64,000 bases of DNA, from positions 1 through 64,000 of the forward strand of contig JAALKI010000008.1 in NCBI GenBank assembly GCA_011088105.1. The letters run 5' to 3'. The position numbers were made by a program, and so were the translations under genes. The DNA comes from Nitrospirota bacterium (GTDB lineage Bacteria > Nitrospirota > Nitrospiria > Nitrospirales > UBA8639). The notes under the pieces are model-generated. The model was not told the origin of the DNA. It searched no databases and saw only the letters and a list, made by a program, of their open reading frames with translations. Positions 29,870 to 38,300 of the stretch are shown one piece after another (within the stretch, counting starts at the first letter, position 1; every line of letters begins with the position of its first letter).

Positions 29870-31323
29870 TCATTGGTTGTTCAGCGCTTTCCTTACTAAA
29901 TCACCGTATTCTTCACTCACGTTATCGAAATGCCGCAACATTCGGTCTTGAATGTCTTTTTTCGCCACGCTGAGTGAAGCGGCAATATTCATGACCAGCT
30001 GCCTTTTCTGAGTACCATCCATGATCGCAAACAGGTTGGCTGGTTGGCTGTAGTCATCATTACCGTCACGATGATCAAATCGATCCAATGATGCCGATGA
30101 AAGCCTAACTGGGGGCTCCTTGTATGTAGCATCACTGCTTGGATGTGCTTGACCATCAAAAGTTGTATTGTCGTATGAGCCGTAATTCTTTTTTCCCGTT
30201 TGGTAGGGGCACATTTGTCCATCCCGTTGATAGGTATTAACAGATCCTGCACGAGGTCGATTGACATCCAGCGCATGATAATATTTGTGCCAAGCCGGTA
30301 TCGATGGGCATCGGGATAGGCAAACAATCGTGCCTGAAGCATCTTATCAGGACTTGGGCCAATACCCGGAACAAAGTTTGACGGAGACAAGGCGCTCTGC
30401 TCCACTTCGGCAAAATAATTATCTGGGTTCCTGTTAAGCTCCAGTTGGCCGACCTCAATCAGCGGATAGTCTTTATGGGACCACACTTTCGTGAGATCAA
30501 AGGTCCACGGACTTTTCTCAGCTTCTTTTTCTGGCATGATCTGAACATGGGCTGTCCAAGAAGGATAATCCCCCCTTTCGATATGATCAAAAAGGTCTTC
30601 TTGCGCCGCCCAAGGACGATGTTTGACAATCTCACCCGCTTCTTCATTTGTCAGACATTGGACCCCTTGGTTGGTTTTAAAATGCCATTTAAACCAAAAC
30701 CGCTCTCCCTTTGTATTCCAAAAGCTAAAGGTGTGAGAACCATATCCATTCATATGTCGAAAGCTTTTAGGGATACCTCGGTCACTAAAGAGAATGGTGA
30801 TTTGATGTAACGACTGAGGGTTTTGTGACCAAAAGTCCCAAACGGCATCAGGATTTGTGACGTTTCGCATCGGACACCGTTTCTGAGAATGAATGAAATC
30901 CGGAAACTTGAGCGGATCTCTCAGAAAAAAAACCGGCGTGTTATTGCCAACAACATCATAATTCCCCTCTTTCGTGTAAAACTTCATGGCAAACCCTCTG
31001 GGATCTCGAATCATATCGGATGATCCTTGTTCACCTGCCACGGTACTGAAGCGAAGAAAGAGATCGGTTGTTTCACCTTCATGCTGCAGAAAACTCGCAA
31101 TCGTGAAATCTTTGAGACTCTTCGTTAAGGTAAAGGTTCCATAGGCCCCAGATCCTCGAGCATGGACAACCCGCTCGGGAATACGTTCACGGTTAAAGTG
31201 GGCCAGCTTTTCAATTAAATGATGATCTTGAAGTGCTAACGGGCCTCTTGGGCCAACAGACAAACTATTTTCATCATCAGCCACAGGCATTCCAAATGAT
31301 GTAGTGAGTAAGTGCTTTGCCAT
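29870..31323 (-). pseudogene. katA: Heme catalase with a frameshift near codon 347
   Basis: The first frame (ATG at 31323, AGGAGG upstream) encodes a clade-3-type monofunctional catalase through the catalytic His ([11 protein letters not shown]), distal Asn ([10 protein letters not shown]) and proximal heme Tyr ([16 protein letters not shown]). Right after LGTN, at about 30281-30285, the frame is lost. Two extra bases, or one missing, bring back [18 protein letters not shown] in another frame, which runs to a stop at 29870 and completes a protein of about 483 residues, the normal size. The lesion is in the sequence AATATTAT and could be a real mutation or an assembly error. If real, the truncated protein would keep the heme site but lose the C-terminal helical domain. 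It is divergent from oxyR. Confidence 0.88.
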
Positions 31324-31463: not shown

Positions 31464-32363
31464 ATGACCTTAACCCAAATCGAATATATTTTGGCGGTGG
31501 CGAAAGAGAGAAGTTTCCGTGGTGCAGCGCACACTCGGTTTGTCACTCAACCAACACTGAGCATGCAAATTCAAAAACTGGAAGATGAATTGGGAGTACT
31601 GATTTTTGATCGATCACAGTCACCAATCCTTCCTACAAAAATTGGCACACTTATTATCGACCAAGCGAAAGTGTTGTATCGTGAGGCTATGAGAATTCCT
31701 GAAATCATTCAGACTCAAAAGTTCGGGCTTGTCGGTGAATTGAGCGTTGGCATCATTCCAACCATCTCTCCGTATTTGGTCTCCCTCTTCCTCAAATCAT
31801 TCAACAAGAAATATCCTCACATCGACATCAACATCTCTGAGCTCACAACGCATGCCTGCCTTAAGCATTTAGAACAGGAAGACATTGACGTAGCCATCCT
31901 TGGTACAAAGGAAGAGGAAAAGCCGTTTGTTCAGGAAAAGTTATACGATGAAGAATTTATGTTGTTTGCGAATAAAGACAATGCCTTACTGAAAAAGAAA
32001 ACGGTTTCAACTTCTGACATCAACCTGAAAGATCTTTGGTTGCTAGAAGAAGGCCATTGCTTAAGCGACGCCATTATCACGACATGCAACCTTCGACAAG
32101 ATGTCTCACAACTTCCAGGACATTTGAATTTTAAAATTGGGAACCTTGAGTCTCTTCGATTATTGGTGCAAGAAAATTTTGGCTATACCCTGTTACCCTA
32201 TTTTTCAACGCTTAAACTCAACCCGAAAGAAAAGAGACTCTTACGAACATTCTCTGATAGAAAACCTCAACGTACGGTCTACCTCACTTTACGAAGAGGA
32301 TACTTAAAAGAAGCATTCGTTCACGCCTTGAAATCTGAAATGTTAAGCTCATTACCGAAATAG
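31464..32363 (+). CDS. oxyR: LysR-family peroxide sensor OxyR
   Basis: The 299-residue product has an N-terminal LysR winged helix-turn-helix (residues 1-60) and a two-lobed effector domain. In the EEGHCLSD block, Cys falls at residue 199, and a second Cys at 208 follows nine residues later; this is the spacing and numbering of the peroxide-sensing disulphide pair in Escherichia coli OxyR. It should activate the divergent catalase under peroxide stress. AAGGAGGGG precedes the ATG. Both redox Cys are intact although the catalase is frameshifted. Confidence 0.93.
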   Translation: MTLTQIEYILAVAKERSFRGAAHTRFVTQPTLSMQIQKLEDELGVLIFDRSQSPILPTKIGTLIIDQAKVLYREAMRIPEIIQTQKFGLVGELSVGIIPTISPYLVSLFLKSFNKKYPHIDINISELTTHACLKHLEQEDIDVAILGTKEEEKPFVQEKLYDEEFMLFANKDNALLKKKTVSTSDINLKDLWLLEEGHCLSDAIITTCNLRQDVSQLPGHLNFKIGNLESLRLLVQENFGYTLLPYFSTLKLNPKEKRLLRTFSDRKPQRTVYLTLRRGYLKEAFVHALKSEMLSSLPK

Positions 32364-32462
32364 CCATTCGCGGATTCATATAATAAGTGCAATTTCTCGA
32401 GCCACTCGCCTCGGGTACGATGGTGGGCTGTCGCAATCAATGTCACAGCAGGAGGAGTCTCG

Positions 32463-32579
32463 ATGAAATCGTATCAACAGTTACGGCAAGAAGAGAGATT
32501 TTACATCTGGCAAGCCCGGCGGGAGGGAAAAACGCAAAAGCACGTCGCCGAGACGCTGGGCCGGCATCCCTCTGGAAGC
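32463..32579 (+). mobile_element. IS30-family transposase remnant (N-terminal fragment)
   Basis: An ATG at 32463 with AGGAGGAG upstream opens a frame whose first 37 residues (YQQLRQEERFYIWQARREG, then KTQKHVAETLGRHPS) match the helix-turn-helix start of IS30 transposases. Exactly where the family continues with TISRELRRN the match ends and the DNA becomes the truncated WD40 gene of the opposite strand. The upstream 100 bases may hold the IS left end, but I could not define an inverted repeat. Confidence 0.8.
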
Positions 32580-35500
32580 TTACATATGGTCATGGGAACA
32601 CGATATGACGTATTTTTCACTAAGTACATCAACATCATTGACTCTGGCAATGTGTCCTTTAAGAATTAAGTCACTTGACTCACAACCAACTGTCCACACT
32701 TTTACCGTGCAATCATCAGACCCAGAAATAAACCTTTGTCCGCTGGGAAATATTGCCAATGAATTTTGACGAGCTGTGAGACCAGAGATCGACTGATATT
32801 CTGTTCCCTTTTCAAAACTCCAAACTTTTATAGTCTGACTATCAACTGCGGAAACAATAAACTGAGAATTTGGTGTGACAGCCAAGGCTCTTACCCAATA
32901 ACGCCCTTGAATCGGAATAGTCATTTTAAGTTTTACTTTCTCTAAATCCCAGATTTTTATAGTTCGATCGTCTGAAGCCGAAATGAGATATTTCCCGTCA
33001 TCCGTTGATGCCAAAGCTCGTATTCGGTCAGTATGGCCAAAAAAGATCTTAGTGGGTAGCATAGCATCCAAATTAATCAGTGCTATAGTGGCATCCCCAG
33101 CAGAGGAAAGGATATTTTTTCCATCAGACGTGAATGCAATCGGCCAATGATTCCTTTCAATAGGGGCATGAGTTTGTGTTCTATTATCCAATTCCCAGAA
33201 TCGCATTGTACGATCATCTGAAGTGGATACCGCCCGTTTTCCATCAGGAGAAACTACAATTGCTCTGACACGTTCAAAGTGACCTTTAAAAGGAAATGTA
33301 TTGGTCTCCTCTGTTAAATCCCAAACTCTTAAGGTGTGATCATCGCTTGCAGAAACAGCAAAGGTTCCATCCGAAGATAACGCCACGGAATTGACGCACG
33401 CATTATGTCCTATGAAAGTTTGCCTTAGTGTACACTCGCGAACAGACCACATCTGGATCTTATTATCTTCACAAGAGGCCAACACATACTTTCCATCTGG
33501 TGTCGCACCCAATCCCTTTACTCCGATTGCTTTCCTTAATACTTTAAGAAAAATTCCTTTCTGGAAATCCCACAGGCGTAAGGTATCATCACTCGATGCA
33601 AACACTAGATTTTGATTATCCGGCATGATAGATAGTGCATTCACGCGATGAGTATGTCCCTTTAAATCATACCTTTCTGTCCCATCCTTCAAGTTCCATA
33701 CCTTAATGGTTCGATCATCTGAAGCGGAAATCAGCCAGTTACCACATGAGGTGACTTGTAACACATTAATTTTGGCTAAGTGCCCTAATAGAGTCCTTTG
33801 TATCACTCCATTCTTAAGGTCCCAAACTCTCAATGAGTGATCATCAGTAGCAGAAATGGCATACTGACCATCAGGGGTCACTGCCAACGCTAAAGGCCGG
33901 TCCACATTATGGTAGATCGTTTTTTCTAATTCCGAATTTGCTAGGTTCCAGATCCTCAATGTTCTATCGTCGGAGATCGATACTGCCTGCTGTCCATTAA
34001 AGGACACGGCCACAGCTCTGACCCAATCTTTATGTCCTGCAAACGTTCTTACTTCCTTACCTTGCTTTGGATCCCACAACTTCAATGTGCAATCATCAGA
34101 CCCTGAAATCACCAAGGACGATTGGGGAACCATTGCTAGGCAACGGATTCGTCCATGGTGGCCTTTGAGAGTCAAAATAAGAGTCCCACCTGGAGGCGTT
34201 AGATTAGGTTCTAACGGAATTAACCAAGGGGCACTCCGCCAACTCATTGCTTTTTCACGCAACATAGTAATTTCTGGAGAATGATCATCATGGAGACGGC
34301 CCAATAATTGTCTAGCAAGTTGTTTTTTATCCTCCGCCAAGACATGCGCAGAAAGTTGAAGAGTGCTGGCTACAACTCGTAATTTGTGATCGTTTGGTAC
34401 AAGGAGGAAATCTCTCAAGAGACTGTTTATATTTGTTGCTTCAAGTTTGGCTTGCAACCAATGAAAATCTAAAAGAAGATTTCTTAATTCCAACTGTCTT
34501 TCTGCTTTTACCAAATGATAGGAAAACCAATGCCAGGCATAATTACTCGAAAGCCTTAAAGGGTCACCCCAAGAATTTAATAAGCGACCATGCAAAGCCG
34601 GGGAATCTATAATTTGGCCCGCCATATAGGCCCGCATAACATCATGGACACGACACATCGAAGTTCTTAAGTTGAAAACAAGAAGAGAAAAATTATCAAA
34701 TTGCTGAATCAACTCCTCTACCTCAAAATCATCTAAGCCCCACAGCATGCTAATTTCTTTCAGAGGTATTTGTTCATCTTCTGGGAAAATGGCGAGTTCA
34801 AAGTAACGCATCCGTTCTGCTTCTTTGAAATGATCAAGACTTACTTCGATAGTTCGAGTAATTGCCTGATGGCGTTCTTGTGGATTCCATTGATCAAAGG
34901 CACTGACACCTTGTTTATCTAGTTTACGGTTGAGATATGAGACCGCTCCACGAATGGTGTCTCCTCTCTCAAGACGATGCCGTAATGCAGCCCCCGCCAG
35001 TTCTAAAAGCAACGGCCATTCGCCTAATCGACGAGCCAGATGTTGAAATAATTGAACATTCTCGTTCCCTGAAGTCAGCCGATTTGTGAGCATTTCCACA
35101 GCTTCTGGATTTGTCATTTCATTGACGTTTACACTTTTGGTTTCAGCAGCAACAGAAAAATTGCGAGTAGTAATAAGTCGAGCACTGTGTTTTCCAATTC
35201 GTAGGAAGGGACGTAGATGTGTTAAATCCCAGACGTCGTCGATAACAATGAGGCAATTCAGATCCTCTAGCTTTTGGGCTAGATGAATTGTGACATCTTC
35301 TTCATCGATAAAACCCGGACGTTGACCTGTGAGTGCCGCATATAATTTCGTCAATTCTTCTCGAATCTGAGGTCTTTGGCCTAAGGTAACCCATAGAATC
35401 CCATCATCATAGGCTGTAATAATATCATCGTGATGACATATAGCAGAAGCCAACGTTGTTTTCCCTAGTCCTCCGGCACCGCGAAAAGATGTCGTGATTG

Positions 35501-35597
35501 TTATTGGCTCCTCTTTATCTTCTCCCAGAAGAAAATTAAGGAGCTGGTTAAACTCCCTAGGGCGTTCAATCAGATTTTTGGGTAAGTCAGGGGCCAT
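32580..35597 (-). CDS. NB-ARC STAND NTPase with WD40 propellers (C-terminally truncated, severed from TIR domain)
   Basis: The NB-ARC region shows a P-loop (GAGGLGKTT), Walker B (CLIVIDDVWD), a sensor TTR (RLITTRNFS), GLPL-like WPLLLELAG and an MHD-like VHDVM, followed by twelve complete WD40 repeats and the first half of a thirteenth. The frame ends abruptly at CSHDHM-stop, where the DNA joins an IS30 remnant; two seven-bladed propellers would need fourteen blades. The same frame continues upstream past a TAA at 35664-35666 into a TIR domain. The ATG at 35597 is the first possible start after that stop but has no strong ribosome site. Such TIR/NB-ARC/WD40 proteins are NLR-like immune or signalling ATPases that oligomerise on ligand binding. 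Codon and base use look AT-richer than neighbours, suggesting transfer. Confidence 0.85.
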   Translation of the reverse strand: MAPDLPKNLIERPREFNQLLNFLLGEDKEEPITITTSFRGAGGLGKTTLASAICHHDDIITAYDDGILWVTLGQRPQIREELTKLYAALTGQRPGFIDEEDVTIHLAQKLEDLNCLIVIDDVWDLTHLRPFLRIGKHSARLITTRNFSVAAETKSVNVNEMTNPEAVEMLTNRLTSGNENVQLFQHLARRLGEWPLLLELAGAALRHRLERGDTIRGAVSYLNRKLDKQGVSAFDQWNPQERHQAITRTIEVSLDHFKEAERMRYFELAIFPEDEQIPLKEISMLWGLDDFEVEELIQQFDNFSLLVFNLRTSMCRVHDVMRAYMAGQIIDSPALHGRLLNSWGDPLRLSSNYAWHWFSYHLVKAERQLELRNLLLDFHWLQAKLEATNINSLLRDFLLVPNDHKLRVVASTLQLSAHVLAEDKKQLARQLLGRLHDDHSPEITMLREKAMSWRSAPWLIPLEPNLTPPGGTLILTLKGHHGRIRCLAMVPQSSLVISGSDDCTLKLWDPKQGKEVRTFAGHKDWVRAVAVSFNGQQAVSISDDRTLRIWNLANSELEKTIYHNVDRPLALAVTPDGQYAISATDDHSLRVWDLKNGVIQRTLLGHLAKINVLQVTSCGNWLISASDDRTIKVWNLKDGTERYDLKGHTHRVNALSIMPDNQNLVFASSDDTLRLWDFQKGIFLKVLRKAIGVKGLGATPDGKYVLASCEDNKIQMWSVRECTLRQTFIGHNACVNSVALSSDGTFAVSASDDHTLRVWDLTEETNTFPFKGHFERVRAIVVSPDGKRAVSTSDDRTMRFWELDNRTQTHAPIERNHWPIAFTSDGKNILSSAGDATIALINLDAMLPTKIFFGHTDRIRALASTDDGKYLISASDDRTIKIWDLEKVKLKMTIPIQGRYWVRALAVTPNSQFIVSAVDSQTIKVWSFEKGTEYQSISGLTARQNSLAIFPSGQRFISGSDDCTVKVWTVGCESSDLILKGHIARVNDVDVLSEKYVISCSHDHM

Positions 35598-35663
35598 GAA
35601 TGGCCTACGCGGTGCTCGGCAAGGACTTTTCAAATAATTAACGAACGTATCCCACTCATTCGC

Positions 35664-36029
35664 TTAGTCAAAGAATTGAGACTTTCTCATCCACAAAGGC
35701 AATCTAGAAAAAGCTAAATCTTTGTCTGGCACTCCTTTTACTGGATAAACGCAAACTCCCCTTTCCCGAGCATAACGCCATTCCTTTTCGATAATTGGAG
35801 ACTTTAGGGCGTTAGGAGTTATCACCAACACCAGAAATTTAACCACATCCAGTGCTTCGGAAATTTGTTTCCACCAACTGATTCCACCTTCCAAGCAAAT
35901 TCGATCTTGCCAAAGAGTAATTTCAGGCTCCTTCTCTTGCAGACGCTTTCGCAATTCAGTGGCAATCGCCTCTCCATCACTACGAGCATATGAAAGAAAA
36001 ACTCGAGGACGGTCTTTTAGATAATCCAT
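35664..36029 (-). CDS. TIR domain, cut off from the NB-ARC part by an in-frame TAA
   Basis: The 121-residue product begins with DYLKDRPRVFLSYARSDGE, the first strand of a TIR domain, and contains ITLWQDRICLEGG, the SWWKQISEAL helix, SPIIEKEWRYA with the helix-C Glu positions, and SRLPLW before the stop. Bacterial TIR domains usually hydrolyse NAD or make cyclic-ADP-ribose-type signals when clustered. After the TAA the same frame reads ANEWDTFVNYLKSPCRAPR, the linker that normally joins TIR to NB-ARC, so the stop looks like a recent nonsense mutation, for example TTA to TAA. The ATG at 36029 is preferred over a TTG at 36047. Confidence 0.85.
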   Translation of the reverse strand: MDYLKDRPRVFLSYARSDGEAIATELRKRLQEKEPEITLWQDRICLEGGISWWKQISEALDVVKFLVLVITPNALKSPIIEKEWRYARERGVCVYPVKGVPDKDLAFSRLPLWMRKSQFFD

Positions 36030-36346: not shown

Positions 36347-36835
36347 ATCAGCACCATCTATGATATCCCCTGCCAAACCATCAGTGGCGAGGACCAATCG
36401 CTCTCTAAATATCAAGACCATGTATTATTGATTGTCAACACGGCCTCTCAATGTGGGTTCACTCCACAATTTCAAGACCTTGAGGCTCTCTACAAACAAT
36501 ATCACGCGCAAGGCTTTGCCGTATTGGGATTTCCATGCAATCAATTTGGCAGTCAAGAACCAGGCAGCCATGAAGACATTCTTAGCTTTTGTCAAACGAA
36601 TTACGGTGTCAGTTTTCCCATGTTTGCAAAGATCGACGTGAATGGCCCCCATGCCCATCCACTCTACCAATATCTTAAAAACGCGGCCCCAGGCCTGCTA
36701 GGATCGGAAGCCATCAAATGGAACTTCACCAAATTTCTTGTCGATAAATCTGGAAAGGTCTATGAACGTTTTGCCCCGACTACCAAACCAGAGGCCATAG
36801 CCCCTGCCATTCAAGCACTTTTGAAGAACTCGTGA
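36347..36835 (+). CDS. Glutathione peroxidase-like thiol peroxidase with anomalous start codon (ATC)
   Basis: The product shows the family blocks NTASQCGFTPQ with the peroxidatic Cys at about residue 36 (Cys, not selenocysteine), LGFPCNQFG with the resolving Gln environment, and KWNFTKFLVD with Trp and Asn of the catalytic tetrad. Coding similarity clearly extends upstream of the first in-frame TTG (36428) as STIYDIPCQTISGEDQSLS. The residue preceding that stretch, where the family has Met, is encoded by ATC at 36347, with AAGAGG seven bases upstream. Either ATC is used as a rare start or the gene has lost its ATG. Bacterial members usually reduce hydroperoxides with thioredoxin. It lies 4.9 kb from oxyR. 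Confidence 0.8.
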   Translation: MSTIYDIPCQTISGEDQSLSKYQDHVLLIVNTASQCGFTPQFQDLEALYKQYHAQGFAVLGFPCNQFGSQEPGSHEDILSFCQTNYGVSFPMFAKIDVNGPHAHPLYQYLKNAAPGLLGSEAIKWNFTKFLVDKSGKVYERFAPTTKPEAIAPAIQALLKNS

Positions 36836-37775: not shown

Positions 37776-38300
37776 TGATCTGCCCCCTTTAAACCACGCT
37801 ATTGTCTATGTAACAGGCTTAGAACAATTTAAAGGAGAGGCCTATGCTACGCGTGAAATTTTCTATCGAACACAGCATCCGCAAACTCCGCAAAGCAGAG
37901 GTATGGCTTGCTCAAGGGCAAACGAGCAAGAATCTCTATCGGAAATGAGCTATGACCGCCCCCCTACCATCGCTGACGTCATGAGTATGGGGGCCTGAAA
38001 CTCGATCAGGCGAAACGTCTAAAGAACTTGGAGCGAGAGAATATTCGATTGAAGCTAGCCGTCACCGACCTGACCCTCAACAAGCTAATTTTCAAGGAAG
38101 CGGCCAAGAGAAATTTCTAAGCCCCACCCGGCGATGGCTGGGGGGCGTGACCATCGGACAACAATTAGGCGTAGCCAAATAACGCATATGTCAGGTGTTG
38201 AGACAACCATGATCAACCCAACGGTATGCGGCTCATCCTCATAGTACTTTGGGATACAAACCACCAACACCTGAGGTCAAGACAACTGAGGCATCTATTC
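37776..38300 (+). mobile_element. IS3-family element remnant with decayed orfA/orfB
   Basis: A likely left end TGATCTGCCCCC (37776) is followed by an ATG (37844, with AAAGGAGAGG upstream) opening an orfA-like frame (RVKFSIEHSIRKLRKAE) that stops early. Another frame then reads YGGLKLDQAKRLKNLEREN and ends in KEAAKRNF, the conserved end of IS3 OrfA, with a Trp replaced by a stop. Next come orfB pieces: LSPTRRWLGGVTIGQQLGV, RICQVLRQP and, after a large internal deletion, HSTLGYKPPTPEV from the C-terminus. No right end was found. The element is dead. Confidence 0.8.

Follow-up and report, generated by a model that had tools for sequence, protein, structure and literature searches.

The question raised by this locus is what has become of an immune-type receptor gene whose reading frame, on the minus strand, carries a TAA codon between a TIR domain and an NB-ARC domain. 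A preliminary description of the window (the whole stretch of 64,000 nucleotides that was analysed) held that this would otherwise be one TIR-NB-ARC-WD40 gene, and that the effector had either been disarmed or worked as a split or readthrough system. Having set the gene against its relatives, a structure model and its surroundings, we suggest that it is most likely dead or dying and not a new split system; more specifically, that it probably belongs to the fused, horizontally mobile TIR-NB-ARC-WD40 genes of the STAND type (bacterial NLR-like) and was inactivated recently.

The interrupted frame and its relatives

The TAA is in frame with both sides, as first described, and is the sole break in a frame that runs from TIR through NB-ARC into about 13 WD40 blades (Table 1). 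The TIR part opens at ATG 36029 (with TTG 36047 as an alternative start), and downstream of the TAA the same frame stays open for 1027 codons, until a stop at 32580-32582. Read through the TAA, it aligns end to end with relatives that are single open reading frames, the residues ANEWDTFVNYLKSPCRAPR after the stop being set against DREWETFINHLKSPCQAAR in the nearest relative (L048). Because this alignment runs straight through the stop, the observation is not one of chance juxtaposition, and the candidate explanation of two unrelated genes that merely adjoin is excluded. None of the relatives has a TAA in the stop column; L048 (codon TTG) and the cyanobacterial L028 both have Leu there, so that the Leu originally proposed to follow FFD or FYD holds for this nearest branch, but not for the other relatives, which have Thr, Glu or similar.

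Table 1. Features of the interrupted receptor gene and its 3′ border (positions in the window).
Feature	Position	Strand	Basis
TIR domain frame	35667..36029	-	121 residues from ATG 36029 to the stop; Pfam TIR_2, E=4.6e-15; structure model
In-frame TAA stop	35664..35666	-	Sequence; L048 and L028 carry Leu here
Last TIR helix and linker ANEWDTFVNYLKSPCRAPRRPF, now 3′ of the stop	35598..35663	-	Helix 126-134 of the read-through model; alignment
In-frame ATG, best candidate restart for a TIR-less product	35595..35597	-	AGG-6 nt-ATG; linker Met in relatives
NB-ARC and following helical region	34190..35597	-	Alignment; PDB matches to AfsR, Apaf-1 and plant NLRs; boundaries approximate
WD40 array, 12 complete blades and a truncated 13th	32583..34190	-	Pfam WD40; alignment with the 14-blade L048; start approximate
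Junction of truncated WD40 array and IS30 fragment	32573..32583		IS30 homology ends at 32572; L048 homology ends at about 32586
IS30-type fragment, left end and start of transposase gene (MKSYQQLRQEERFYIWQARREGKTQ...)	32369..32572	+	96% identical to G000:C41:4615-4818 over 204 bases

Whilst the part upstream of the stop is recognised as TIR by its Pfam profile, WD40 repeats dominate the Pfam matches downstream; the middle region is NB-ARC by both profile and fold comparison, with its Walker A (GAGGLGKTT) and Walker B (LIVIDDVW) motifs present and aligned with those of the relatives. Glu83 of the TIR domain, the candidate catalytic residue, is invariant in all relatives and, in a profile search of the PDB, aligns with the Glu of the SARM1 ‘HKEI’ motif; a search of the PDB with the single TIR sequence found no match. 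We have filed the gene as a broken member of its family: TIR, NB-ARC and WD40 domains follow in order, with the candidate NADase Glu and the Walker motifs in place, but its frame is interrupted where that of all intact relatives is continuous, and its WD40 array is incomplete.

Relatives were scanned for in 396 genomes of the phylum and 236 of the order. L048 (genome G225, of the same order) is 65% identical over TIR and NB-ARC, and is one protein of 1206 residues with fourteen blades; four others from the order (L049-L052, in G008, G048, G045 and G043 respectively) are 49-52% identical, again with TIR and NB-ARC in one frame, and fused relatives are also present in a Cyanobium bin (L028, 54%) and in an alphaproteobacterial bin (L029, 44%). 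TIR and NB-ARC thus form one unbroken frame in all of the intact relatives found, which supports the view of an otherwise single gene and argues for its recent inactivation. The preliminary description had allowed for close relatives with separate TIR and NB-ARC genes; there were none in the genomes scanned, and a natural two-gene system was rejected as a class for this locus.

Two of the eight relatives in the order are themselves broken, one (L053, genome G080) by many stops and frame changes, in a genome whose genus label is the same as that of the intact L048, and the other (L054, genome G035) by three stops and a frameshift. With two genomes of the order carrying broken copies, decay of the TIR-NB-ARC-WD40 gene is therefore, to judge from these sequences, recurrent in the order, which again favours the inactivation of the copy described here. 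The L048 and L053 loci share downstream neighbours that by eye resemble a PP2C-type phosphatase and a cyclase/FHA-type gene, with the receptor gene intact in the one and dead in the other at what looks like the same site.

A search of plasmids returned one fused, distant relative (Rhizobium, 35% identity, 98% of the query covered), the remaining matches being partial and mostly NB-ARC-side. Within the same genome no second full copy was found, the matches being to WD40 repeats apart from one short, weak TIR-like hit, and a literature search on the TIR-NB-ARC-WD40 family in this bacterial group found no paper.

A stop within the predicted TIR fold

The read-through TIR-NB-ARC segment was modelled from a nine-sequence alignment (mean pLDDT 80.9). 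In the model, TIR strands and helices occupy residues 10-115 and the last TIR helix residues 126-134, with the stop at residue 122; it is thus predicted to lie inside the TIR fold, such that the 121-residue product would be without the last TIR helix, which would instead open the downstream frame. One would expect a functional split to fall at a domain boundary, and on the model this one is not domain-clean. The position of the stop favours inactivation and, along with the want of a naturally split relative and of a good ribosome site for the second frame, speaks against a split system. Of the second frame as first described, the frame itself stands, but its nominal start (the in-frame TTG at 35633) is not credible, because translation would then set in within the last TIR helix; no ribosome site is evident for this TTG either.

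A better candidate for restart is the ATG at 35597, which has a weak AGG six bases upstream and sits at the start of the NB-ARC part. It nevertheless strikes us as improbable that translation restarts there and yields a TIR-less NB-ARC-WD40 protein retained as a decoy or regulator. In favour of this explanation, the frame after the stop runs open for over 1000 codons with its ATPase motifs preserved; but the Met is an ordinary internal linker residue in every relative (L028, L029 and L048-L052), its ribosome site is poor, the WD40 array has lost its end and no relative has a TIR-less, split form. The further idea that one nonsense change turned a killing receptor into a non-killing sensor, for example one that regulates other STAND or TIR proteins or serves them as a decoy, we regard as very improbable.

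It is also conceivable that some readthrough of the TAA gives low levels of the whole protein, although we would call this extremely improbable. The frame is the same either side of the TAA, but none of the 41 tRNAs identified, from 42 candidates in the genome, is a suppressor that reads the stop codon (which in turn favours inactivation); no relative shares the stop, and the downstream product, too, would be without the end of the WD40 array. We know of no evidence that TAA followed by G is a leaky context. A stop-codon readthrough gene was likewise rejected as a class for this locus, and of the alternatives originally offered it is disarmament that stands, in keeping with the fused relatives and with a second lesion at the 3′ end, whilst the split and readthrough systems find no support.

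The lost 3′ end and the neighbouring genes

The WD40 array breaks off in blade 13 of 14 (at SCSHDHM), 51 residues short of L048, which runs on through blade 14. Adjoining the break is a 204-base IS30-type fragment that closely matches a copy on contig C41 of the same genome (Table 1), where the transposase reads on past the fragment's break point; its identity to a further copy, on C20, is 74%. By comparison with L048, this 3′ truncation is a second lesion, independent of the stop and unmentioned in the preliminary description, and its place beside a fragment of an element common to the same genome adds to the case for inactivation. The simplest reading is that a deletion or rearrangement joined an IS30 copy to the gene; the lesion is not a base-call error, though, much less probably, it may be an assembly join at a repeat. 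Elsewhere in the same genome, a contig ends inside this IS30 element, within its first 28 bases (G000:C49:29190-29217, L057), and from this contig end further IS30 copies probably lie at assembly breaks.

The IS30 fragment starts 5 bases past the stop of an apparently intact gene for a LysR-type regulator (31464-32363, plus strand), which, from its place beside katA, is probably OxyR-like. The catalase gene katA itself (29870-31323, minus strand), downstream of the receptor gene, is frameshifted near 30285, its Pfam catalase match stopping at profile position 343 of 383, with the catalase-related C-terminal domain intact in another frame. On the other side of the receptor gene, upstream, the glutathione peroxidase gene gpx has ATC (36347-36349, plus strand), with a good ribosome site (AAAGAGG) before it, at the position of the ATG start in its five nearest relatives. 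About 20 other genes of the window, by contrast, have family matches in long unbroken frames.

This clustering of lesions in katA, gpx and the receptor gene suggests either local decay, consistent with inactivation, or a locally poor consensus. The latter bears on the main rival to gene inactivation, namely that the TAA was miscalled in the consensus of a 70-contig draft assembly, with TIR and NB-ARC still forming one protein and the WD40 array shortened. A single-base stop may be such an error, the small lesions in katA and gpx may point to poor consensus nearby, and the rest of the receptor frame is open; however, the 20 or so other genes show no breakage, no fault in base calling would account for the loss of the 3′ end at the IS30 fragment, and members of the family are broken elsewhere in the order. 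On balance, we consider a consensus error unlikely.

Age, origin and kinship with known receptors

If the gene has been inactivated, as we prefer to think, its good preservation has to be accommodated: since the frame is otherwise open, and both the Walker motifs and the candidate catalytic Glu are still there, the decay must be recent or the remnant must have been kept. With no further stop in 1027 codons, the nonsense change would, if the rest is unconstrained, be younger than about 2% neutral divergence. Lineage-specific changes after the stop number 51 against 28 in L048 with one outgroup (p=0.013) and 57 against 41 with another (p=0.13), and the contrast of post-stop changes with the TIR part gives p=0.08; relaxed constraint after the stop is thus only suggestive, a point that counts against recent inactivation. 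As to origin, GC3 is 0.35 in the receptor gene against 0.42-0.59 for the other window genes measured, and in the tree the gene falls beside a cyanobacterial copy and L048, whose genome belongs to a different family of the order, and not beside the copies from its own family; its horizontal acquisition is likely.

By analogy with Apaf-1, plant TIR-NLRs and antiviral STANDs (PMC13174449, PMC12881547, PMC10907252), two seven-bladed WD40 propellers in the intact relatives would keep the NB-ARC ATPase inactive until a trigger is bound, whereupon the NB-ARC part would assemble into a ring and the clustered TIR domains would cleave NAD+, such that the infected cell is stopped. In the copy described here, the nonsense codon ends translation after 121 residues, with loss of the connection between effector and switch, and the sensor end is lost in blade 13 of the double propeller, at the IS30 fragment; with the chain broken at both ends, we infer that no working receptor is made. 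The likely history, we suggest, is that a suicide-type module costly to its host was lost, with insertion sequences playing a part.

Taken by itself, the stop codon provides no evidence for new biology. The family does, however, offer a clear example of gain and loss of a bacterial NLR-like gene, intact in some relatives and dead both here and in at least two genomes of the order, and the intact L048, L049 and L051 would be good test cases for an Apaf-1-like, TIR-armed receptor, more useful than the stop. These three (same order; L048 from G225) share the domain order of the gene described here, at 48-65% identity over TIR and NB-ARC, but unlike it have one unbroken frame and a complete C-terminus.

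Among known systems, the plant TIR-NLRs (RPP1, ROQ1) have a TIR followed by NB-ARC as here, RPP1 (7dfv) being the best fold match of the model, although their sensor is an LRR and not a WD40 array. In Apaf-1, as in this gene, a double WD40 array comes after the NB-ARC (fold match 1z6t, E=3.5e-9), but the N-terminus of Apaf-1 is a CARD and not a TIR (PMC13174449). The antiviral STANDs (Avs, bNACHT) have the same effector-NTPase-sensor layout (PMC10907252), and a bacterial TIR-TPR protein (9m0n) matches profile positions 10-199, from TIR into NTPase; in each of these, the NTPase class or the sensor differs from that of the gene here. An anti-phage role of the WD40 type could be proposed only by analogy with Avs, bNACHT and TIR systems, and the PADLOC matches are to the TIR parts of other systems. 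Finally, a stretch at about 37990-38125 (plus strand) looks by eye like what is left of an IS3-type transposase (LDQAKRLKNLERENIRLKLAVTDLTLNKLIFKEAAK), with no intact frame.
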